Origin: a bacterium
Lineage (GTDB): Bacteria; Myxococcota_A; UBA9160; UBA4427
Length of the DNA stretch: 64,000 bases
Direction of reading: 5' to 3'
NCBI GenBank assembly: GCA_024742285.1
Contig: JANSYR010000009.1
Coordinates: 1 to 64,000, forward strand
Shown piece by piece: positions 31,650-42,964 of the stretch. Within the stretch, counting starts at the first letter, position 1, and every line of letters begins with the position of its first letter. The position numbers and the translations under genes are program-made. The notes under the pieces are model-generated. The model ran no database searches. It had not been told where the DNA came from and saw nothing but the letters and a program-made list of their open reading frames with translations.

Positions 31650-33269
31650 GTGAGCGATCCCGATAGCGATGACCGCGCGATGGCCGAGGATCCGGTCGAG
31701 GAACCGACCGCGCCGGCGTTCTGGTCGACGCCCCGGGCCTGGCTGCTGATCGTGGCGGGTGGGCTGATCGCATGGATCTATCAGCCCCTCTTCTTCCCGC
31801 AGAGCGATACGACCCTCGCGCTCCAGAGCGAGGAATTCTTCTTCGAAGCGAACGAGGCCGCCGGCGCGCCCGTCCTGATCCTGACGGCCTGGCTCGTCTA
31901 TCGCCGCAGCCACCGCCTCGACGTCTTCCGCGCCGGCGGCGCACTCCTGCCCGGTGCCGGCCTCTTCGCGGTCTGCGTGGGGCTCTATGCCTGGGGCCAC
32001 TACACGGGCGCGTCGGATCTCCAGCTCTCGAGCGTGATCCCGTTCCTCTTCGGTGGCGTCGTCGCGCTCGGCGGCGCCGCAGCGGCGCGTGCGTTCTGGG
32101 TCCCGATCGTCTTTCTCGGGTTCGCGCTGCCGATCCCGCCCGTGTTGCTCTCGGCGACGATCTTTCCCGTGCAGCTGATGACGGCGGAATACGCCGGCAC
32201 GATCCTGAATCTGATCGGCGTGAAGTCCCTCGTTTCGGGCGACATGATCTTCCGTCCCGAGAACCGCTTCATCGTGATCGAGACCTGCAGCGGCGTGCGA
32301 ACCGTCGTGACCCTCACGATGTTGACGGTGCTGTTGATCGACCTCTTCGAGCGGCGCGGCCGACATGCGGTGATCCTGCTCTTGCTCGTGCCCTTCGTGG
32401 CATTCGTGACGAACGGCTTCCGCGTCGTCTCCCTCGTGCTGAACCCGCATTCGTCGGTCGCGTCGATCCACAACCTCCAGGGCATCCTGATGCTCCTGGT
32501 CGGACTCACCGGGATCTACCTGCTCGACCTCGCGCTCGAGAAGGCGCTCGGGAGTGGAGAGCCCGGGACGGACCCGATCGCCTACGGGCGCGTCCGCGAG
32601 TCGGCGTCCGTCCAGAACGGGCTCGCCGGGCCCGCGCTCGCCGTCGTCGTGGCCGGACTGATGCTGGTGATCCCGAGCGTGATCGTGCCCTACGCGCCGG
32701 CCTCGGGTCTCGCGGAGATGCCCTCCGCGTTGATCGATCGTGCCTTTCCGGATGCGCCGTGCAAGGAGATTCCGCCGGACTACGAGTTCCGCGGGAGCAT
32801 CCGCTACCTCGCCCACCACGACCGGGAGCTCCTCCGATTCGAAGGCGGCCCCCTCAAGGTCTTCCTCGGCGTGGCCAACGAGCCGCTCCGCTCGCACACC
32901 GTCCTCAGCCCTCGGCTCGCCTGGCCGCAGTCGGGCTGGGTCCCGATCCAGGACGAGGAGGTCGACCTCGACGAGGACGCTCGGGGCGTGCGGCGGGTCC
33001 TGCTCGAGCGGAGCGGTCGCCGCGAGCTCTCCTATTCCTGGTACGTCCGAGCCGGCAGCTTCGCGGGAGAGTGGTTCCGTCAGGCCCTCGCCCTCGATCG
33101 ATCCCCGCTCGAGCGGGAGGCGCACATGCTCGCGGTCCGGATCACGGTGCCGATTGCGCGGGGCGACACCCGGATCGAGGAGGCGGAGGAGCGGGTTCGG
33201 CGCGCCTGGCGCCGACTGGCGCCGCAGCTCGAAGGCTACGCGCCCCTCCGCGTGGGCGATCGAGGGTAA
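31650..33269 (+). CDS. Exosortase fused to an EpsI-type domain
   Basis: 539 residues starting at GTG 31650 behind GAGAGGA. The first 300 residues have about eight transmembrane helices and the exosortase catalytic residues: Cys213 in ETCSGVR, Arg258 in NGFRVV and His274 in IHNLQG. Residues about 310-539 form the EpsI (DUF3485) domain after one more helix. Exosortases cleave PEP-CTERM tails and are associated with surface polysaccharide systems. Two PEP-CTERM genes lie 1-3 kb downstream, the presumed substrates. No EPS biosynthesis genes are in the window. Confidence 0.92.
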   Translation: MSDPDSDDRAMAEDPVEEPTAPAFWSTPRAWLLIVAGGLIAWIYQPLFFPQSDTTLALQSEEFFFEANEAAGAPVLILTAWLVYRRSHRLDVFRAGGALLPGAGLFAVCVGLYAWGHYTGASDLQLSSVIPFLFGGVVALGGAAAARAFWVPIVFLGFALPIPPVLLSATIFPVQLMTAEYAGTILNLIGVKSLVSGDMIFRPENRFIVIETCSGVRTVVTLTMLTVLLIDLFERRGRHAVILLLLVPFVAFVTNGFRVVSLVLNPHSSVASIHNLQGILMLLVGLTGIYLLDLALEKALGSGEPGTDPIAYGRVRESASVQNGLAGPALAVVVAGLMLVIPSVIVPYAPASGLAEMPSALIDRAFPDAPCKEIPPDYEFRGSIRYLAHHDRELLRFEGGPLKVFLGVANEPLRSHTVLSPRLAWPQSGWVPIQDEEVDLDEDARGVRRVLLERSGRRELSYSWYVRAGSFAGEWFRQALALDRSPLEREAHMLAVRITVPIARGDTRIEEAEERVRRAWRRLAPQLEGYAPLRVGDRG

Positions 33270-33646: not shown

Positions 33647-34066
33647 ATGAAGCTCAAGCTCATCATGCTTGCAAGCGTTTTTGCTTTCGGATTCGCGTTC
33701 ACGGCGAACGCTGGCTCCGTCGTCGACACCGACTCGGACCTCGTTCCGGACGCGTACGACAACTGCACCACGGTCGACAACGGCCCGGGCGAGGCCTCGA
33801 ACCAGGTCGATTCCGACCAGGACGGCTACGGCAACGCCTGCGACACGGACTACACCGGGGACAACCAGACGACGACGGCCGACTTCGGCGTCTTCTTCCC
33901 GGCGTTCACGGGTGCCACCCCGGACCTGCAAACCGATCACAACGGCGACGGTGACACGACGACGGCCGACTTCGGTCCGTTCTTCGCGGACTTCTCGTCC
34001 AGCCCGCCGAACCCGCCCGGCCCCTCGGGCCTGGCCTGCGCTGGGACGCCTCCCTGCCTGCCCTGA
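33647..34066 (+). CDS. Secreted dockerin/thrombospondin-3-like calcium-binding protein
   Basis: 139 residues with a 22-residue signal peptide (MKLKLIMLASVFAFGFAFTA, cleaved after ANA). The first mature part has TSP3-type acid repeats (DTDSDLVPDAYDNC, DSDQDGYGNACD). The second part holds two dockerin-like repeats, DYTGDNQTTTADFGVFF and DHNGDGDTTTADFGPFF, with DxNxDG-type calcium loops. The end is Pro-rich. An AAGGAGAA ribosome site precedes the ATG. It is the first gene after the sigma-54 element and is followed by a hairpin and the PEP-CTERM gene. A role as a soluble partner of the neighbouring cohesin-like protein is inferred. Confidence 0.75.
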   Translation: MKLKLIMLASVFAFGFAFTANAGSVVDTDSDLVPDAYDNCTTVDNGPGEASNQVDSDQDGYGNACDTDYTGDNQTTTADFGVFFPAFTGATPDLQTDHNGDGDTTTADFGPFFADFSSSPPNPPGPSGLACAGTPPCLP

Positions 34067-34080
34067 TCGGCTGATCTTCT

Positions 34081-34118
34081 GGATCGATCGCCCGGGAAGG
34101 GTCTCGGGCGGTCGATCC
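34081..34118 (+). terminator. Hairpin after the first dockerin-like gene
   Basis: GGATCGATCGCCCG (34081-34094) pairs with 34105-34118 with one mismatch. There is no T-run, so it may be a processing or attenuating structure rather than a full terminator. Confidence 0.45.
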
Positions 34119-34266
34119 TGATGGAGGGTGCCGTCGTCGACAAAGTGACAATTTCTGCCTCGGAACTTGCCACATTCCCGTCCACGACGTCACTCATGAA
34201 ACAGAGCCCCAAAACCTCGTCCACGCGGATGCTGAAAGCTCTGGTTCCTATTTTTCAAGGAGAATA

Positions 34267-34908
34267 ATGATGCGGCTGTTTTCTTCCATTCTCGCGGGCC
34301 TCGCGACGTTCGCGATCGCGACGACGGCCTCCGCGGGCCTCAACATCGACGTGCAGGCGGACCGTGACCCGTTGGGGCTGCTTCCCGATAGCGGTCAGCT
34401 GACGCTCACGATCACGCTCGACGTCGACACCCTCGGCGAAGCGCAGGGTCTCACCCTCCGCGCTGCTGGCCTCGGCAACGGTCTGACCTTCGCCTCCGCC
34501 ACGCTCGCGAACCAGGGCGTCTTCGGCGCCGCGGCGGGTGGCTCGGCCTTCGGTACCCTCACGGAGATCGCCCCCGGCTTCTTCGCCTACTCGGGCGGGA
34601 TCGACAGCATCCTCGCGGGCGCGGTCGACAACGGCGACAACGTCGTCCTCTTCGACGGCGTCTCGACGGGAACCACGACCGGTGCCGGTCCGGAGGTCTT
34701 CACGCTGACCCTGGACGTCGGTACGACCGGCTCGGGTGTGCTCGAGATCGGTGCGATCGAGTCCTTCGGCGACGCGTTCGTGAGCAACGTCGACGGTACG
34801 TCCTTTCCGACGACGACGGTTGCCTACAACATCGTCCCGGAGCCCGGCACGGCGCTCCTGATGGGCCTCGGCCTCGCGGGCCTCGCTGCGGCGGGCCGAC
34901 GCGAGTAG
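34267..34908 (+). CDS. PEP-CTERM protein with cohesin-like ectodomain (paralogue A)
   Basis: 213 residues: signal peptide (cleaved near TASA/GLN at about 23), an all-beta ectodomain (about 24-185), then the sorting tail VPEPG, a hydrophobic stretch LLMGLGLAGLAAA and GRR. The tail is the exosortase recognition signal. The ectodomain pattern (a TITLDV strand, EAQGLTL, VLFDGVS, EVFTLTLDV, SGVLEIG) resembles cohesin-type beta-sandwiches, but this is only pattern recognition. It is clearly paralogous to the protein encoded at 35866-36513. A CAAGGAGAA ribosome site precedes two adjacent ATGs (34267, 34270). Confidence 0.88.
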   Translation: MMRLFSSILAGLATFAIATTASAGLNIDVQADRDPLGLLPDSGQLTLTITLDVDTLGEAQGLTLRAAGLGNGLTFASATLANQGVFGAAAGGSAFGTLTEIAPGFFAYSGGIDSILAGAVDNGDNVVLFDGVSTGTTTGAGPEVFTLTLDVGTTGSGVLEIGAIESFGDAFVSNVDGTSFPTTTVAYNIVPEPGTALLMGLGLAGLAAAGRRE

Positions 34909-34977
34909 CGTCCATCGCGACTCCGTCGCGAACAAGGAACTTCGAGCGCGATCGCTGATCGCTCCCGAATCCGACTG

Positions 34978-35018
34978 AGAGCGCCCTGGATCCTCGAGAT
35001 CCAGGGCGCTCTTCGTTG
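34978..35018 (+). terminator. Terminator of PEP-CTERM gene A
   Basis: Perfect 15-base-pair stem (34978-34992 with 34998-35012) with a five-base loop, followed by TCGTTGT. Confidence 0.75.
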
Positions 35019-35773
35019 TGCGGCGCCGCGCTGGGGCGGGGGCCGCACCGCCTGGTCCGAAGCGCCGCGAGACGAATGGCAGCCTCGAGTCGAGGTGCCT
35101 GCCGCGCAATGGATCCGTCGCGCATCGAGGGAGAGCGGCTCGCGGGATGGAGAGGACCCGAACCCGCCCCCGTGAGCGAGTCGCGAGAAGCCGCCGTGGC
35201 AGGGAGCCGCTGCGCCCCGCGAGTTCTCTCGATTGGCCCTGCGCGCGCTGCCCCAGGGAGACCGTCGCCGCGACCGAGCCGAGCCAGTCGCCGGGTGTAG
35301 GAAGGTCCGATCTGCCCCGCGACCCGCTGCCCCCACCGTCGCGCCCGATCCTTTGGTCCGGACCGCACCGAAGAAGGCGCCCGGCCTACGTGAGCCCCGG
35401 CGCCCCACCCGCCCGCCCTCCGAGACCCACTCGGGAACGAGTCTCGAAGCGACCACGAACGGAGAGTCGACTCCAGTCGACAACGGTCCGGAGCGGTTCG
35501 CGACGGCCTCGGACTCGGCGGTCGGGTCGCCCGGGAAGCGGGAGACCCCACTCTCGCCGGCGAGCTCGACTCAGCCTGGAGGGCGCTCCCAGGCGCTACC
35601 TCGATGGGCCCGCGAGCGCGACTGCACGTCGCGGACCCTTCGTCGGCGTCACGTCACACACGCCCCGCCGCCGCTGGCCGAGGGGAACCGCGAGCGCTCA
35701 GGCGTCGCCGCGTGACTTCCGTGCCCTCTGCGATCCGCTTTCGAGCTTCCCTCTGCCCCTCTAGCCCGTGCAC

Positions 35774-35807
35774 GAAAAACGGCCGGGAGCACTAGGCTCC
35801 CGGCCGT
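35774..35807 (-). terminator. Terminator of PEP-CTERM gene B
   Basis: Perfect 12-base-pair stem ACGGCCGGGAGC / GCTCCCGGCCGT (35779-35790 with 35796-35807). Read on the minus strand it is followed by TTTTT, a classic intrinsic terminator. Confidence 0.85.
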
Positions 35808-35865
35808 TGTCGAGCGAACGGTCCCAGCCCTGCGCGCACGCAGGGCCGGTCCTGTCAGGCTTCGA

Positions 35866-36513
35866 TCAGTCGTTTCGCCGGCGGCGAATCCCGACGACCC
35901 CCATGACCGATCCGAGCGCCGCCAGGCTGGCCGCGGCCGAGCCGGGTTCGGGCACGGTCACCGAGAGCAGCGTCGTCGGGAAGGTCGTGCCGTTGACGCG
36001 GCTCACGAACGCGTCGCCGAAGGACTCCACGGCCCCGATCTCGAGCTCCATGGTGCCCTCCTGCAGGGCGTCGAAGGTAATCGTGAAGACGTCGGGGCCG
36101 GCACCGTTGGGCGTACCCGTCGAGACGCCGTCGAAGAGGACGACGTTGGTCCCGTTGTCGACGGCATCCGCGAGGATGCTGTCGATCCCGTCCGAGTAGG
36201 CGAAGAAGCCCGGGGCGATCTCCTCGAGGGTGCCGAAGATCGAGCCGCCATCAGCGGCGCCGAAGACGCCAGCATTCGCGAACGTCGCGGAGTCGAACGC
36301 GATCACGGTGTCATCGATCTCGGCGACGCGCAGCGTGAGGCCCTGCGCTTCCGGGGCCGGCGTCGTCAACGTGATCTCGATCGTGAAGGGCTGCCCGACC
36401 GGGAGCGCGTCGAGATCGCTCGTAGAGCTGGTCTGGATGTTGAGCTGGGCTACGGCCGGGATCGCGAACGCGGCCGTCATCAGCGCAGCGAAGAACGAAG
36501 TCGTTAGGCGCAT
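35866..36513 (-). CDS. PEP-CTERM protein with cohesin-like ectodomain (paralogue B)
   Basis: 215 residues: signal peptide (cleaved near AVA/QLN), beta-rich ectodomain, then VPEPG, a hydrophobic helix and a basic end IRRRRND. Roughly 60 per cent of positions match paralogue A by eye, including PEAQGLTLRV, IAPGFFAYS, DGIDSILA, NVVLFDGVSTGT and VESFGDAFVS. It is the mirror-image counterpart of paralogue A, on the opposite strand. It should be sorted by the exosortase encoded upstream at 31650. A GGAAC ribosome site precedes the ATG. Confidence 0.88.
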   Translation of the reverse strand: MRLTTSFFAALMTAAFAIPAVAQLNIQTSSTSDLDALPVGQPFTIEITLTTPAPEAQGLTLRVAEIDDTVIAFDSATFANAGVFGAADGGSIFGTLEEIAPGFFAYSDGIDSILADAVDNGTNVVLFDGVSTGTPNGAGPDVFTITFDALQEGTMELEIGAVESFGDAFVSRVNGTTFPTTLLSVTVPEPGSAAASLAALGSVMGVVGIRRRRND

Positions 36514-36649
36514 TGTTCCTGTGTTCCTCTCGAACGGTATCAGGCTGCTCGTCGCCGGGCTCGAAACGATTCATCCCGGTTCGAACGAAGGGCAGCCACC
36601 GAATAACAGTTGGAAAGTAGATAAGGTGAAGCGAGTCGAAGCCGACTCC

Positions 36650-36901
36650 CTAGCTGCAGTCGAGCAGCACTCCGTAGTCTTGCGTCGTCACGCGTCCGTC
36701 GCCGTTGAGATCGGCCGCCGGGACGTAGCCCGCATCACCCTCGTAGGTGCCGAGCGCATCACGCAGCACGATCACGTCGCTCTCGTCGGTCACTCCGTCG
36801 CCGTTGATGTCGGTTACGGGGCAGGCGTCCTGGGCGAACGCAGCGGGCGCCAGAAAGAGCGTGACAGCCGCAACGAAGAAACGCCCCCAGGTCTTTTGCA
36901 T
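36650..36901 (-). CDS. Secreted dockerin-like protein
   Basis: 83 residues: signal peptide (MQKTWGRFFVAAVTLFLAPA, cleaved after FAQ region at about 24), then essentially a single dockerin-type module with two calcium-binding loops, TDINGDGVTDESD and ADLNGDGRVTTQD, separated by 30 residues, ending in Cys. Such a tiny free dockerin is unusual. The start at 36901 is supported by GAGGAG upstream. It precedes PEP-CTERM gene B on the same strand, repeating the order dockerin-then-PEP-CTERM seen at 33647-34908. Confidence 0.75.
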   Translation of the reverse strand: MQKTWGRFFVAAVTLFLAPAAFAQDACPVTDINGDGVTDESDVIVLRDALGTYEGDAGYVPAADLNGDGRVTTQDYGVLLDCS

Positions 36902-37168: not shown

Positions 37169-40100
37169 GTGCATCGTCTGGCCTCGGCGCGAACCCTCCG
37201 TGCACCGACTCCGATTCGACGGGTGGTCGCCACCCTCGTGATCGCGATCGTCGGCGCGATGACGGGGTTCGCTCGAGCCGATCAGGAGCGCGTCGAGGGC
37301 TTCGCTGCGCAGCACGGCGCGCACTCCGATTCGCGCGCCCACGCGCGCTCCTCCGCCTCCAGACCGCACCTGGTCGTCAAGTACCGGGGCGCCGGTCCGC
37401 ACGCGCTCAACGACTGCGCCGAACGCCTCAGTCGTCGCGGACAGCGGTTCGCCCCCTTCGCCGCCGACGGTGGGGCCGACCTCGACCGCTTCCAGCGGCG
37501 CTTCGGGGTCCTGCCCCATCGTGCGCTGTTCCGACGCACGACCGGCGCGGGCTTCGCCGCGGAGTCTCGGGCGTTGCGGCGTCGGTTGCGGCGGGCTCGT
37601 GAGAATAGAGGCCAAAACGCTACGAATCGCGCGATGGCCGGGCTCCCGGAGCTCGGACACGTGTATCGGGTCGAAACACCCACAGAAACGGATCCGGAGG
37701 AGGTCCTCGACCAGCTGCGCGCACTCCCCCAGGTCGAGTGGGCGCAGCTCGACTACGAGATCCAGCCCGAGCAGCTCGCTCCGTTCTTCGATGATCCCTT
37801 CCTGGCGACCGCTGGGAGCTGGGGCCAGCCCTATGCGGACCTGTGGGGACTCGAGCAGATCGGGGCGCCGAGCGTGTGGGCCGACGGGCTGGGCGAAGGC
37901 CGGATCGTCGCCGTCGTCGACACGGGAATCGACACGACCCATCCCGACCTCGCCGACAACATCTGGGTCAACCCCGGAGAGGATCTCGATGGAGACGGCG
38001 TCGCCGAGCCGAGCGACCGCAACGGCATCGACGACGACGGGAACGGGTTCGTGGACGACCTCGTCGGGTTCGATTTCGGCGATTCGTTCGATGCCAACCA
38101 GGACGGTGACTACGACGATCCGGGGGACGTCTCCGATCCGGATCCCTTCGATGAGCGTGGCCACGGGACCCACGTCGCGGGCACGATCGCCGCGGTCGCC
38201 GACAACGGGCTGGGGATCGTCGGCGTCGCTCCGGGCGTCCGGGTCATGGCCGTCAAGGGCTTCCCCCGCGAAGGATCCGGCGTCGATTCCGTCTTGTGGC
38301 GCGCCGTCCTGTACGCGGCCGAGAACGGCGCTCACGTGATCAACAACAGCTGGTCCTGCGGCGATCCGTGCCCATCGAACCCGCTCGCGACCGACATCCT
38401 CGAGCACGTCGAGGCGCTCGGCGCCGTCGTCGTGACCAGCGCGGGCAATGCGTCGTCGGATGTCTCGCTGCGAAGCCCCGAGAACACGGACGCGGTCCTG
38501 ACCGTCGGCGCCCTCGGCTTCGACGATCGTCTTCCGAGCTTCACGAATCGCGGCTGGGGGATCGATCTCGTCGCGCCCGGTGGAGGCCCCTCGGTCGAGC
38601 CGGGGGTTCAGGTCGCGCGCCGCAACATCCTGTCGCTGCTCACGAGCGCGCCGCTCGAGAGCGAAGCCCCCTTCGTCGTCGGAGAGTTCTATCGACGGCT
38701 TGCGGGGACGTCGATGTCGGCACCGCACGTCGCTGGCGCGGTCGCTCTCGCGAGTGCGCGCCGGCCGGACCTCGCGCCGGCCGCGCTCCGTGACTGGCTG
38801 CGCCTCGGCGTTCGTGATCTCGGCCCCCCGGGCTACGACTGGCTCAACGGCGCCGGCGCGCTGCATCTTCCGACGCTGCTCGAGAGCGCGCCGCCCGAGG
38901 TCGACCTCGCGCTCGAGGCGCCGGCTTCCGGGAGCCTCGTCGATCCGGCCGATGGTGCGGTTCGTTTCGAGGTCGTCGCGACGGGTCCGGACGTCGCGGG
39001 CCTCGAGCTCTCCATCGCCGAGGGCCTCGTGGGCCGCGAGTTCGTCCCGCTCGAGAGCCTGCCGGGCGTCGAGCGCGTTGCGCCCTCGGTTCGCGGGGCC
39101 GCCGAGTTCGCCGCCGACTGGGACGCGCGGTCCGCCGCGTCCGGGCCCCGCACGCTCCGTGTCCGGGTCCTTCTCCGGGACGGGCGAGAGATCCTTCGCT
39201 TTCGAGTCTTCGGACTCGATCGTGTCCGGCCGGCTGCGTACACCCGGGGAGACCTCGGCGTCGCGGCGCCCTCGACCGACGGGCGTCGCGTCGCGTGGTT
39301 GATGGAGCACCGCGGAGAAGACGAACGATTCGGTGTCTCGGTCGATCGCGTTCGAACGGCCACCGCGAAACGTCCCTTCGCCTCCTCGCGGGCCGAGAAC
39401 GTCGCGAACGGTCGGCGGGACCGATCCCGATCGGCGCAGGAGGGCCCGGTCACCGCGCCGCCGACGGCCGTCGACGGGCGTCCCATCCACGTCGACATCG
39501 ACGGCCGAGTGATGGCCTGGCGATCGAGGGAAGAGACCCGGTTCTCGATCGGATGGTGCTTCCTCGAACCCGATGGCCGCTCCTGGAAGGAACGCTCCGT
39601 ATCCCGTTCGACGACGGACGAATGTGTTCCGCGCGCACTGGACGCGGCCGCTGAGAGTCTCTCGCGACCCTGGGTCGGGCGCGGGTGGATCGTGTGGCAA
39701 GAGGGCCTGGGGGCGGGCGGACCGATCGAGGGATGTCGCCCGAACCGCGGGCGGCGAGGGTGTGCTCCGATTCCCCTCGTCGAGTTCGCCGAAGGCGATC
39801 CGCTCTGGCGCCTTCAGTCCTTCGACGGGCGGACGTTGCTGCTCGAGGGGAGCGGCGTGCTGGCCCGGTGCCGGTTGTCCCGCGACGGTCGGCCCTGCAC
39901 GCCCGAGCCGATCTCCCTCGGCCCGGGCCGCGTCGATCCGGACGGCCCGATCCACTCGGGTGACCTCGTGGTCTTCGGTGTTGCGGACATCGAGCTCCGG
40001 CCGCCCGACGGTTGCGTGTTCGGAGACCTGCTGCCCGAATGCCGGCCTGCACTCCAGGTCGTCACCCGACTCCACGCATGCGAGCTGGAGGAGTCGGAGG

Positions 40101-40723
40101 ACGACTCGGGTCCGCGATGCGATGCGCGAGCGATCTCGTCGTCGCTCCGTGTGGACCAGCTGACGGGCCCGCAGGTTTCGGGGCGCCGCGTCGTCTGGTC
40201 GATCGGGAGCGCGATCGAGGCGCCCTCGATCACGTTCTGCGAGTTCGATTCGCGCACCGGGTCGTGTCCTCTGCAAAGAGTCACGGGAACGCTCGCCTCA
40301 CAGGCCCAGCCCGACGTCGCAGGGCGAACGCTGGTGTGGCGTGGCGCTCGGGAAGCGGGCGAGTCGATCTGGTCGCTCTCGCTGCCGGATCTGAGCGTGC
40401 CGACGCGTCCGGTTCCGGTTCGCGGGCGCGTCTTCGTCGTTCCCCTCTACGCACGCGCCGGAGATGCGGGAGACTTGTCCTACGAGGTGTCGGTCTCCGG
40501 AGCGGATCCATCCCCGGGCCTCGTCTCGAAGATGGAGATCCTCGACTTCGGACGGCCCGGCGGCCGTATCTGGCTCGTCGGTCACGCCTCCGGGTCGGAC
40601 TCGGGGAGGGAGCGAGTCGAGGTCGTCGCCCGGGATCGCTGGGGACTCGAGAGCCGCGGCGCGATCGACCTGGAGATTCGTCCGTGGAATCTCGCCGAGA
40701 AGGATTCCTCCGACTCGCCCTAG
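37169..40723 (+). CDS. Secreted S8 subtilisin-like protease with predicted C-terminal beta-propeller
   Basis: 1184 residues from GTG 37169 behind GAGGAGAG. Signal peptide to about 37, propeptide-like region 65-205, S8 domain about 230-570 with Asp251 (VVDTGID), His332 (GHGTHVAG) and Ser515 (GTSMSAPHVAG), and an acidic calcium-binding insert at 272-300. Residues about 576-690 look immunoglobulin-like. Seven repeats ending in [DVSH]xGRx[VL]xW-type strands (about 704, 778, 837, 886, 930, 1004, 1051) suggest a TolB-like seven-bladed propeller with several Cys pairs. Another beta domain ends the protein. It is probably an extracellular or surface protease. Its stop overlaps the convergent pqqE stop (CTAG). 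Confidence 0.9.
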   Translation: MHRLASARTLRAPTPIRRVVATLVIAIVGAMTGFARADQERVEGFAAQHGAHSDSRAHARSSASRPHLVVKYRGAGPHALNDCAERLSRRGQRFAPFAADGGADLDRFQRRFGVLPHRALFRRTTGAGFAAESRALRRRLRRARENRGQNATNRAMAGLPELGHVYRVETPTETDPEEVLDQLRALPQVEWAQLDYEIQPEQLAPFFDDPFLATAGSWGQPYADLWGLEQIGAPSVWADGLGEGRIVAVVDTGIDTTHPDLADNIWVNPGEDLDGDGVAEPSDRNGIDDDGNGFVDDLVGFDFGDSFDANQDGDYDDPGDVSDPDPFDERGHGTHVAGTIAAVADNGLGIVGVAPGVRVMAVKGFPREGSGVDSVLWRAVLYAAENGAHVINNSWSCGDPCPSNPLATDILEHVEALGAVVVTSAGNASSDVSLRSPENTDAVLTVGALGFDDRLPSFTNRGWGIDLVAPGGGPSVEPGVQVARRNILSLLTSAPLESEAPFVVGEFYRRLAGTSMSAPHVAGAVALASARRPDLAPAALRDWLRLGVRDLGPPGYDWLNGAGALHLPTLLESAPPEVDLALEAPASGSLVDPADGAVRFEVVATGPDVAGLELSIAEGLVGREFVPLESLPGVERVAPSVRGAAEFAADWDARSAASGPRTLRVRVLLRDGREILRFRVFGLDRVRPAAYTRGDLGVAAPSTDGRRVAWLMEHRGEDERFGVSVDRVRTATAKRPFASSRAENVANGRRDRSRSAQEGPVTAPPTAVDGRPIHVDIDGRVMAWRSREETRFSIGWCFLEPDGRSWKERSVSRSTTDECVPRALDAAAESLSRPWVGRGWIVWQEGLGAGGPIEGCRPNRGRRGCAPIPLVEFAEGDPLWRLQSFDGRTLLLEGSGVLARCRLSRDGRPCTPEPISLGPGRVDPDGPIHSGDLVVFGVADIELRPPDGCVFGDLLPECRPALQVVTRLHACELEESEDDSGPRCDARAISSSLRVDQLTGPQVSGRRVVWSIGSAIEAPSITFCEFDSRTGSCPLQRVTGTLASQAQPDVAGRTLVWRGAREAGESIWSLSLPDLSVPTRPVPVRGRVFVVPLYARAGDAGDLSYEVSVSGADPSPGLVSKMEILDFGRPGGRIWLVGHASGSDSGRERVEVVARDRWGLESRGAIDLEIRPWNLAEKDSSDSP

Positions 40724-41787
40724 CGTCGGGGTTGGAATCCCGGCGCTCTCACTTCTCTCGCGTTCGCGATCACTTCGTGCGAAGGCGATTTGGTGCACGC
40801 CGGATCGGTCAGGCGAGCATCCCCCAGGAGCCGGAAGGCCTGACATCGGCAGCCACCGAAGTCGACCTCGCGGTCCTCGCAGCTCCGGCAGGGCTCGGGC
40901 ATCCAGTCCGTGCCTCGGTACGCGTTCATGCCGGGGCTGTCTCGCCAGCAGGCCTCCACGGAATGATCCTGAACACGCCAGAACTCGAGCTCGGGGATCT
41001 CGCCCGCCTCGTGGCAGGGAAGGACCCGCCCGGTCGGATCGATCACCATCGCGAGGCGGCCCCATCCCCCCATGCAGGGCTTCGGTCGATCCGAGAAGTA
41101 GTCGGGGAGGACGAAGAGCATGTTCAGCCCCGACCCGGCGAGCCGCGTCTGCTCGGCCTTCACGACGCGGCTCGCCTCGGCGAGCTGCTCTGCGGTCGGA
41201 ATCAGCGCTGAACGATTCAGCAGCGCCCAACCGTGGTACTGGGTGTTCGCGAGCTCCAGGCGATCCGCGCCGAGTCGCTCGGCGAGGGCGATGACCTCGC
41301 CGATCGCGTCCAGGTTCTCGCGGTGGAGCACGCAGTTGATCGTCAGCGCGAGGTCGAGCGCCTTCGTCCGCTCGCAGAGCGCGAGCTTCGCGTCGAAGCT
41401 GCGCGTTCCGGCGATCCGGTCGGAGCCCTCCGCGGTCGCGTCCTGAATCGAGACCTGCACGCTTCGCAGGCCGACGTCCGCGAGCTCCGAGAGGCCGTCG
41501 GGCGTGAGCGGGAGGCCCGCCGTGACGAGATGCGGGTAGAGGTCGGCGGCGACGGCGCGCTCCACGATCTCGGGCAGGTCCTTGCGAGTGCTCGGCTCGC
41601 CGCCGGTCAGACCGACGTGGACGACGCCCAGCGCGGCGGCTTCCCGGAAGACGCGTCCCCAGTCCTCGGCCGAGAGCCCCTCGCGCCGCTCCCGGAACGC
41701 CAGGGGATTCGAGCAATACGGGCATTGGAGCGGACAGCGATACGTCAGCTCCGCGATCAGGTTGAGCGGCGCGATCCCCTCGGTCAT
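40720..41787 (-). CDS. pqqE: PqqE radical SAM enzyme with SPASM domain
   Basis: 355 residues. The radical SAM cluster is in TYRCPLQCPYCSNPL; the SPASM region has KPCMGGWGRL, LPCHEAG, MPEPCRSCEDREVDFGGCRC and ACTKS. PqqE forms the Glu-Tyr carbon-carbon crosslink in the PqqA precursor, the first step of pyrroloquinoline quinone synthesis. The match to known PqqE proteins is close over the whole length. It overlaps pqqD by 4 bases (ATGA). Confidence 0.94.
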   Translation of the reverse strand: MTEGIAPLNLIAELTYRCPLQCPYCSNPLAFRERREGLSAEDWGRVFREAAALGVVHVGLTGGEPSTRKDLPEIVERAVAADLYPHLVTAGLPLTPDGLSELADVGLRSVQVSIQDATAEGSDRIAGTRSFDAKLALCERTKALDLALTINCVLHRENLDAIGEVIALAERLGADRLELANTQYHGWALLNRSALIPTAEQLAEASRVVKAEQTRLAGSGLNMLFVLPDYFSDRPKPCMGGWGRLAMVIDPTGRVLPCHEAGEIPELEFWRVQDHSVEACWRDSPGMNAYRGTDWMPEPCRSCEDREVDFGGCRCQAFRLLGDARLTDPACTKSPSHEVIANAREVRAPGFQPRR

Positions 41788-42065
41788 CCCGACTCTCCGT
41801 CGGCGTCGATCGAAGTGATCCCGCCCATCGTGATCATCTCGTCCAGGAATCGCTCGACTTCGTCCGCGAGGCCCTCCGTCCCCGGGTATCGGTCGGCGAG
41901 GATCGACGTGATCTCGTCGCGGCTCCGCGTTCCGTCGACGAGCTCGAGGATCTCGCCTCCGCTGCCTTCGAGCCGGATCGCGCGCTCGGGAAGCACGAGG
42001 ACGTGCCCCTGCGCGCGGACCTTGAGCGCGGCGTGCCGCGAGAGGGCGTAGCGAGCGGCGGCCAT
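41784..42065 (-). CDS. pqqD: PqqD peptide chaperone
   Basis: 93 residues of the PqqD/RRE (RiPP recognition element) family: LSRHAALKVRAQG, VLVLPERAIRLEGSGGEILE and DGTRSRDEITSILADRY. It binds the PqqA precursor and presents it to PqqE. It overlaps pqqE and starts 2 bases after the pqqB stop codon, so the order on the minus strand is pqqB-pqqD-pqqE without pqqC. Confidence 0.92.
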   Translation of the reverse strand: MAAARYALSRHAALKVRAQGHVLVLPERAIRLEGSGGEILELVDGTRSRDEITSILADRYPGTEGLADEVERFLDEMITMGGITSIDADGESG

Positions 42066-42067
42066 GC

Positions 42068-42964
42068 TCAGATCTCGACCTCGAGTCCGTCGAGTCCGAC
42101 CTCCACGCCGGCCTCCGAGACGCGCTTCGCCTCCTTCGCACCGAGCCCCGCGAGAGGATTGCTGGCGGCGACGTGGACGTAGATCGAGCGCCCGTTCATG
42201 CCCGCGAGCACCGCGAGGGAACCGCCGGCGCCGTCGATCGGGACGTGGCCGAGCTCATCGGGTGTCCGCGCACCCGGCCGTAGACGCCGCGCCTCCTCCG
42301 CCGCATAACACGTGCCGTCGACGAAACGCACGTCCGCTTCGCGGAGCTCCGCGAGGGTGGCGGTGTCGAGTCGCTCGATTCGCGGCGCCCAGACCAGGCG
42401 TCGCCCGCTCCGTCGGTCGGTGATCCGGACGCCGCAACGTGCGCGCCCGACGCTCGTCGAGCGATCCCGCAGATGATCCGGGATCGGCCCGGGCAGGGGG
42501 AAGAGCCGCGCCTCGAGGATCTCGTCGCGGTCGAGGGGGAAAGGTCGATCCCAGCCCAGTCCGGTCCAGAGCGGCTCGAGGGTCACGAAGGCGGCATCGT
42601 GATCGAGCAGCTCGCGACGAAGATCGGCGGGCGAGGCGATGCGGATCGCGAGACCGCTGCGGAGCGCGAGCGCACCGGCGCTCCCGTCGAGATCACCCGA
42701 AGTGAGCACGAGGGAGTCGATCGGAACCGCGCGGCTTCCCTCCGGCGGCGCGAAGAGGGGCTCGTTCGCGAGGCTCGCCGCGAGATGGAAGGGTGCTTCG
42801 AGGATCGAGAAGCGAACGCCGTCGGCGCTGACGGCGAGGCAGGCGCCTGCGCGGCGCGGATGGTCCGGGTCGCGTGTCCGCGCCTTCCGGGCGATCTCGG
42901 AGCCGTCGTTCCAGGTCGGGACGCCGGTCGCGACACCGGAGCCGAGCAGCCGCGCCTTCATCAC
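42068..42964 (-). CDS. pqqB: PqqB-like metallo-beta-lactamase-fold protein (divergent)
   Basis: 298 residues. The start LLGSGVATGVPTWNDGSE and the strand GACLAVSADGVRFSILEAP correspond to the PqqB N-terminus, and LTSGDLDGSAGALALRSG is in the position of the metal motif (usually TDGEIDHTxG), here with the His lost. The C-terminal LGHVPIDGAGG matches PqqB. In PQQ synthesis PqqB is an iron-dependent hydroxylase acting on the excised Glu-Tyr. Loss of the metal His suggests altered activity or a different ligand set. It is 25 bases from recX. Confidence 0.82.
   Translation of the reverse strand: MMKARLLGSGVATGVPTWNDGSEIARKARTRDPDHPRRAGACLAVSADGVRFSILEAPFHLAASLANEPLFAPPEGSRAVPIDSLVLTSGDLDGSAGALALRSGLAIRIASPADLRRELLDHDAAFVTLEPLWTGLGWDRPFPLDRDEILEARLFPLPGPIPDHLRDRSTSVGRARCGVRITDRRSGRRLVWAPRIERLDTATLAELREADVRFVDGTCYAAEEARRLRPGARTPDELGHVPIDGAGGSLAVLAGMNGRSIYVHVAASNPLAGLGAKEAKRVSEAGVEVGLDGLEVEI

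Follow-up and report, generated by a model that had tools for sequence, protein, structure and literature searches.

Two paralogous dockerin/PEP-CTERM operons in mirror image beside an exosortase gene: candidate sorted cohesin-like receptors with co-encoded dockerins

Layout and conservation of the locus

The window, meaning the whole stretch of 64,000 nucleotides that was analysed, comes from a 6.5-Mb genome assembled into 56 contigs. Within it lie two paralogous two-gene operons, each consisting of a small dockerin gene followed by a PEP-CTERM gene: operon A (P0001-P0002) on the plus strand and operon B (P0004-P0003) on the minus strand. The features of the locus are:

31650..33269, plus strand: P0005, exosortase (PF09721) fused to EpsI/DUF3485; matched by Pfam, Cys213, Arg258 and His274 present, adjacency kept in the genus
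33647..34066, plus strand: P0001, operon A dockerin; signal peptide, TSP3-like loops, divergent dockerin pair, C-terminal GPSGLACAGTPPCLP motif
34081..34118, plus strand: strong intergenic hairpin of operon A, with no T run after it; recurs in sister genomes
34267..34908, plus strand: P0002, operon A PEP-CTERM protein; cohesin-like ectodomain, tail class A
34489..34717, plus strand: inverted repeat arm, partner 36069-36297, 84% over 229 nt; the homogenised ectodomain segment
34740..34815, plus strand: second inverted repeat arm, partner 35971-36046, 87% over 76 nt
34979..35011, plus strand: perfect terminator-like hairpin 3' of P0002, read from the sequence
35780..35806, minus strand: hairpin with a T run behind it, resembling a terminator for operon B, read from the sequence
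35866..36513, minus strand: P0003, operon B PEP-CTERM protein; cohesin-like ectodomain, tail class B
35971..36046, minus strand: partner arm of 34740-34815
36069..36297, minus strand: partner arm of 34489-34717
36650..36901, minus strand: P0004, operon B mini-dockerin; signal peptide and one dockerin domain, nothing else
37223..40723, plus strand: S8 protease, a syntenic neighbour in the genus

The four open reading frames of the cassette were confirmed in position, order and orientation; their frames are intact and each begins with a signal peptide. Their coordinates and strands bear out the order dockerin, PEP-CTERM, spacer, PEP-CTERM, dockerin in mirror image that had been described in an earlier note on this DNA. 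The exosortase-EpsI gene, which the same note had placed ∼0.4 kb upstream, ends 377 bp before the start of P0001 and encodes a true exosortase, with PF09721 matched over threshold (121 bits, E = 7e-35) and the Cys, Arg and His residues kept. The S8 protease on the other side of the cassette has no dockerin by Pfam and probably stands outside the dockerin/PEP-CTERM pair.

Both PEP-CTERM proteins exceed the PF07589 cut-off of 20.7 bits (25.2 for P0002 and 21.2 for P0003), and each has a signal peptide, a PEP motif, a transmembrane stretch and a basic end. They are 62% identical, the note having already called them paralogs, and are distinguished by their sorting tails, of the type TALLxGLGLxGLxxAGRR in operon A and AASLAALxSVxxxxxRRR in operon B. 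The source genome encodes four exosortases and 55 PEP-CTERM proteins, and exosortase adjacency to the cassette is limited to the source genus; the adjacent enzyme is therefore one of four candidates for acting on these two substrates.

The note had also described two small secreted proteins of dockerin type. For P0004 this was confirmed directly: it scores 33.8 bits against a PF00404 (Dockerin_1) gathering cut-off of 22.9 bits (E = 4e-8), both DxNxDGxxxxxD calcium-loop repeats are present, and its best PDB sequence match is 2y3n_B, a cellulosomal dockerin chain (E = 3e-6). P0001 is not matched by PF00404, TSP_3 matches it weakly, and only the second of its DxNxDGxxxxxD loops is canonical, the first being degenerate. 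Its placement comes from profile comparison, in which the C-terminal loop pair aligned with a profile of P0004-like proteins over 50 columns (98.2% probability, E = 6e-14); the same profile matched P0001-like proteins of two sister genomes. By this comparison P0001 is classed as a divergent dockerin behind TSP3 loops.

The intergenic hairpin of operon A is more stable than expected in five genus genomes (z from −2.3 to −5.2). Its covariation term is slightly unfavourable, so its conservation was judged by recurrence rather than by covariation energy. The hairpin might raise the output of dockerin over that of receptor.

The pairing of a dockerin with a PEP-CTERM gene, which the note had suggested looking for in related genomes, is strongly conserved. 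Among 379 genomes of the phylum the operon B mini-dockerin, as a stand-alone protein, was seen in one family only. Of the 19 copies that could be judged, spread over 17 genomes, every one is followed by a PEP-CTERM gene on the same strand, although four of the 19 end at a contig edge where only the start of the partner is visible. One more copy (G026), which runs off its contig, stands outside the 19, and a more distant arrangement in G012 (contig C32), a 153-aa dockerin ORF followed by a 701-aa protein and then a PEP-CTERM gene, was left out of the count. Given that the 6.5-Mb genome has 55 PEP-CTERM genes, adjacency of the two gene types is expected by chance in about 1% of cases. The operon A pairing is likewise conserved: most genomes of the family have it, as do three from a second family in the order. 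A scan of genome contigs for distant dockerins elsewhere (Poribacteria, Latescibacterota and others) found no pairing with PEP-CTERM genes.

The cassette, or the portion of it present on the contigs, was found in all eight sister genomes. G003, G004 and G008 show the full mirror arrangement, flanked by the S8 protease and the exosortase; in G006 the two units are in tandem and in G007 they are rearranged. Other genera of the family have the same two-gene units, often at unrelated loci. The layout is not a product of chance, because it is kept in related genomes. The earlier reading of this DNA had overlooked the two separate family-wide operons, their different tail classes and their homogenised ectodomains.

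Cohesin-like ectodomains and the proposed pairing

The ectodomains had been described as cohesin-like from their strand patterns, with PF00963 (Cohesin) as the family for comparison. Neither P0002 nor P0003 is matched by PF00963. Across 61 genomes the family gave 16 matches, four of them in operon B partners (G007, G018, G024 and G026) and a fifth, in G009, at the beginning of the operon A partner. The matched partners in G007, G018 and G024 sit directly behind a mini-dockerin; that of G026 lies at the start of a contig, with its dockerin at the end of another. The G007 partner alone of the four is above the cut-off (24.5 versus 24.1 bits). Since PF00963 matches neither P0002 nor P0003, we name them cohesin-like rather than cohesins, a designation in which we have moderate confidence from sequence and model comparisons.

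A joint profile was built from 21 partners, the Pfam-positive counterparts included, and searched against all PDB sequences. Two cellulosomal cohesins ranked first, aligned over the whole domain (E = 0.005), and nine of the first 11 matches were scaffoldin or cohesin-dockerin entries. The top match was 2y3n_A, the chain that partners 2y3n_B, which is in turn the best PDB match of P0004. Profiles restricted to the genus found no cohesin, and P0002 alone returned only noise from the PDB sequences. Against bona fide cohesins of related genomes, the profile of all partners gave P = 4e-5 and the genus profile a weak P = 9e-4, the latter mostly over N-terminal strands; five other PEP-CTERM proteins of the source genome, compared as single sequences rather than as profiles, gave P = 0.05 or worse. 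Two relatives of the ectodomain elsewhere in the source genome have no dockerin neighbour.

As a guide to whether the ectodomain has the nine-strand jelly-roll fold of cohesins, a modest AlphaFold2 model of P0003, obtained from only six sequences (pLDDT 64, pTM 0.66), was compared with the PDB using Foldseek, and the top three matches were cohesins (E = 4e-6 to 1e-4, TM about 0.47-0.64). A second model, of a UBA4427 counterpart, was set aside, its quality being too poor and its Foldseek list uninformative. Thus the description as cohesin-like is moderately supported by the Pfam-matched counterparts, the joint profile and the Foldseek comparison, and is not supported by PF00963 on the window proteins themselves or by the genus-only profiles.

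The reading we consider probable is that the cassette encodes exosortase-sorted surface receptors, whose ectodomain is a cohesin-like but strongly diverged beta-sandwich, with co-encoded free dockerins, in two paralogous operons that were brought into mirror image in the genus. The signal peptides of P0001-P0004 predict export of the dockerin and PEP-CTERM products via Sec, after which, from what is known of such proteins, the PEP-CTERM protein would be processed by an exosortase for surface display. The conserved pairing suggests that the co-encoded dockerin binds the cohesin-like domain, in a calcium-dependent manner. Because the mini-dockerin carries no cargo, it would most likely cap, cross-link or chaperone the receptors, and the cargo would be secreted proteins of larger size that also carry the TSP3-dockerin module. 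A candidate cargo protein is an S8 protease on contig C33 of the source genome, whose C-terminus is a P0001-type module.

In a different role, the free dockerins would be decoys or regulators that sit on the surface cohesins and are displaced by larger TSP3-dockerin proteins, so that the function would be to control cargo loading and not to form a pair in itself. Such a role is possible, if on the unlikely side. P0001-type modules do occur in large secreted proteins, the C33 protease being one, and are abundant in some relatives, and an excess of dockerin could arise through the operon A hairpin; against this, binding of the large carriers to these receptors is hypothetical and the operon B mini-dockerin resembles them only distantly.

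We think it unlikely that the ectodomain is instead another adhesin-type beta-sandwich (pilin, TasA or Ig-like), with the dockerin a non-binding calcium accessory protein or chaperone. Pfam is silent on the window ectodomains, the joint profile also gave weak matches to the TasA family, and other adhesin beta-sandwiches (AgI/II, integrin and pilin domains) rank closely below the cohesins in the Foldseek list for P0003. However, cohesins come first in both of these searches, and the operon B partners account for a quarter of all PF00963 matches in the 61 genomes.

Concerted evolution of the two receptors

In the favoured reading, of sorted receptors with co-encoded dockerins, both receptors share one rapidly diverging ectodomain, and gene conversion or inversion would maintain its likeness within a species. 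Within each of five genomes of the genus, A and B are 65-92% identical in the middle segment of the ectodomain, against 16-48% between genomes for genes in the same position; in G001 only 12 positions are comparable. The tails follow class instead: class A tails are 88-100% identical between genomes, and A and B tails within a genome 46-54% (G001 apart). Across the family, an A ectodomain has its best-scoring alignment with the B ectodomain of its own genome, and not with any other A, in 12 of 14 genomes, the two others being a tie (G009) and an exception (G012). Seen from B, the closest ectodomain is the A of the same genome in nine of 14 genomes; two of the five exceptions have truncated A genes and the others are G012, G018 and G026. 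In a likelihood tree, A and B of the same genome group together, strongly supported for G000, G004, G007, G019 and G021. The similarity is visible in the window at the nucleotide level, as the inverted repeats of 229 nt and 76 nt between the A and B genes.

Since the dockerin class and the tail class persist together across genera, these comparisons show the likeness within a genome to reflect concerted evolution rather than recent duplication. Gene conversion or inversion is the molecular cause that we infer. In G001, a class A tail is on the gene beside the B dockerin and a class B tail is on the facing gene, as an inversion between the repeats would give; an assembly artefact is also possible, because two contigs seem to carry separate parts of the facing gene. 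Counting against the favoured reading, the dockerins show no visible change in step with the fast segment of the ectodomain: P0004 is 87% identical between G000 and G003, the segment 48%.

Receptors that are alike within a species and strongly different between species would suit species-specific surface attachment. A more far-reaching version, which we find distinctly improbable, is that the paired receptors mediate species-specific recognition of self or kin, with one diversifying ectodomain presented in two forms, homogenised by conversion and furnished with different tails and dockerin partners, and with the segment between the repeats invertible so that tails are swapped in the mirror-image genus. 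It is very improbable that the mirror image and the paralog likeness merely record duplications that each lineage underwent recently, without any functional pairing, and this reading was rejected: the grouping of A and B ectodomains by genome would fit, but separate recent duplications would not yield dockerin and tail classes conserved together across genera, and the adjacency persists at unrelated loci.

Relation to known systems

The cohesin-dockerin pair of Archaeoglobus fulgidus is archaeal and is not known to carry a PEP-CTERM tail; at the present locus the dockerin is a protein of its own, the cohesin-like domain has diverged much further, and there is a second, parallel operon. Cited in two papers (PMC9705933, PMC9012536), that pair is non-cellulosomal and resembles the present one in having a dockerin and a cohesin outside any cellulosome; its members bind each other, while binding is proposed here. 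The methane-oxidising archaea and the sulfate reducers that partner them have also been proposed to use cohesin/dockerin adhesins (PMC9012536, PMC10553843). The passages available from these sources mention a non-cellulosomal setting, a proposed role in cell-cell contact and adjacent cohesin and dockerin domains, as here, but the proteins in them are multidomain or multi-cohesin, and those passages describe no single exosortase-sorted receptor with a free mini-dockerin.

The locus shares with cellulosomal scaffoldin-dockerin systems a Pfam dockerin, and the best PDB matches of both partners are the two chains of 2y3n. In contrast to a cellulosome, it lacks both a multi-cohesin scaffoldin and glycoside hydrolase cargo, and anchoring would be through PEP-CTERM tails rather than sortase or S-layer repeats. 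Each receptor has a single ectodomain, Pfam found no polysaccharide-degrading enzymes in the cassette, and none was recognised beside it in related genomes, where genes were recognised by homology to those of the window. With the PEP-CTERM/exosortase system (Haft 2006, PMC1569441) the locus has in common the PF07589 tails and an EpsH-type enzyme with Cys, Arg and His and an EpsI fusion. Most PEP-CTERM proteins are reported to be encoded in single-gene operons (Haft 2006, PMC1569441), which makes the two-gene operons found here, with the PEP-CTERM gene second behind a conserved dockerin, unusual.

Among the open-access papers searched, none treats dockerin and PEP-CTERM together. Non-cellulosomal cohesin-dockerin pairs are already known; the predicted combination of a free dockerin with an exosortase-sorted, cohesin-like receptor in paired operons would be a variant of them. 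Most PEP-CTERM ectodomains have no known ligand; each of those here arrives with a candidate one, and four recombinant proteins suffice to probe the pairing. An ectodomain that evolves fast and is homogenised within the genome raises the question of self recognition or phage pressure. If the proposed reading is true, non-cellulosomal dockerins would gain a concrete co-encoded partner, and the cohesin-dockerin module would be linked to exosortase sorting.

Facing receptor genes and their sorting tails

The PEP-CTERM partner genes (receptors) of operons A and B, which face each other, share an ectodomain segment that is alike inside each genome and diverges rapidly from genome to genome. This homogenisation is also seen in genera whose operons lie ∼10 kb or more apart.

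34489-34717 and 36069-36297, window: homogenised ectodomain segments

In the sister genome G001, the facing PEP-CTERM genes carry exchanged sorting tails when compared with the other sister genomes.

L105 6330-6980 and 8155-8406; L220 2109-2315: tail-swap sites in G001

Such an exchange is the pattern expected from an inversion between repeats; an assembly artefact is a possible alternative, because the facing gene seems to be divided over two contigs.

Further receptors and operon A-like units

In the source genome the ectodomain profile also hits two additional PEP-CTERM proteins, with E-values of 4e-5 and 6e-10, both without a dockerin neighbour. The sister genome G008 carries three tandem copies of the operon A receptor gene, facing the operon B copy. 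A second operon A-like unit is found elsewhere in the sister genome G003, as two TSP3-dockerin genes followed by a PEP-CTERM gene, and elsewhere in the source genome, there without its dockerin genes.

L007 928-1671; L011 1081-1791: additional profile-matching PEP-CTERM proteins, source genome
L077 1635-4099: triplicated operon A receptor gene, G008
L085 6852-8816 (G003); L084 7729-8355 (source genome): second operon A-like units

S8 proteases and TSP3-dockerin modules

Adjoining the S8 protease beside the cassette is a syntenic gene group. By eye, it resembles a radical SAM gene accompanied by a small PqqD-like partner, together with a gene for a PqqB-like protein.

40720-42964 (-), window: syntenic gene group, recognised by eye

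Elsewhere in the source genome, a 992-aa protein has cohesin and dockerin matches on a single chain, both sub-threshold, and a 1492-aa S8 protease ends in a C-terminal TSP3-dockerin module with a GPSGL..C motif, as in P0001, the first protein of operon A.

L206 2723-5698 (-), contig C12: 992-aa protein with sub-threshold cohesin and dockerin matches
L208 7171-11646 (-), contig C33: S8 protease with P0001-type end

P0001-type TSP3-dockerin modules are numerous in some relatives, with up to 43 matches per genome.
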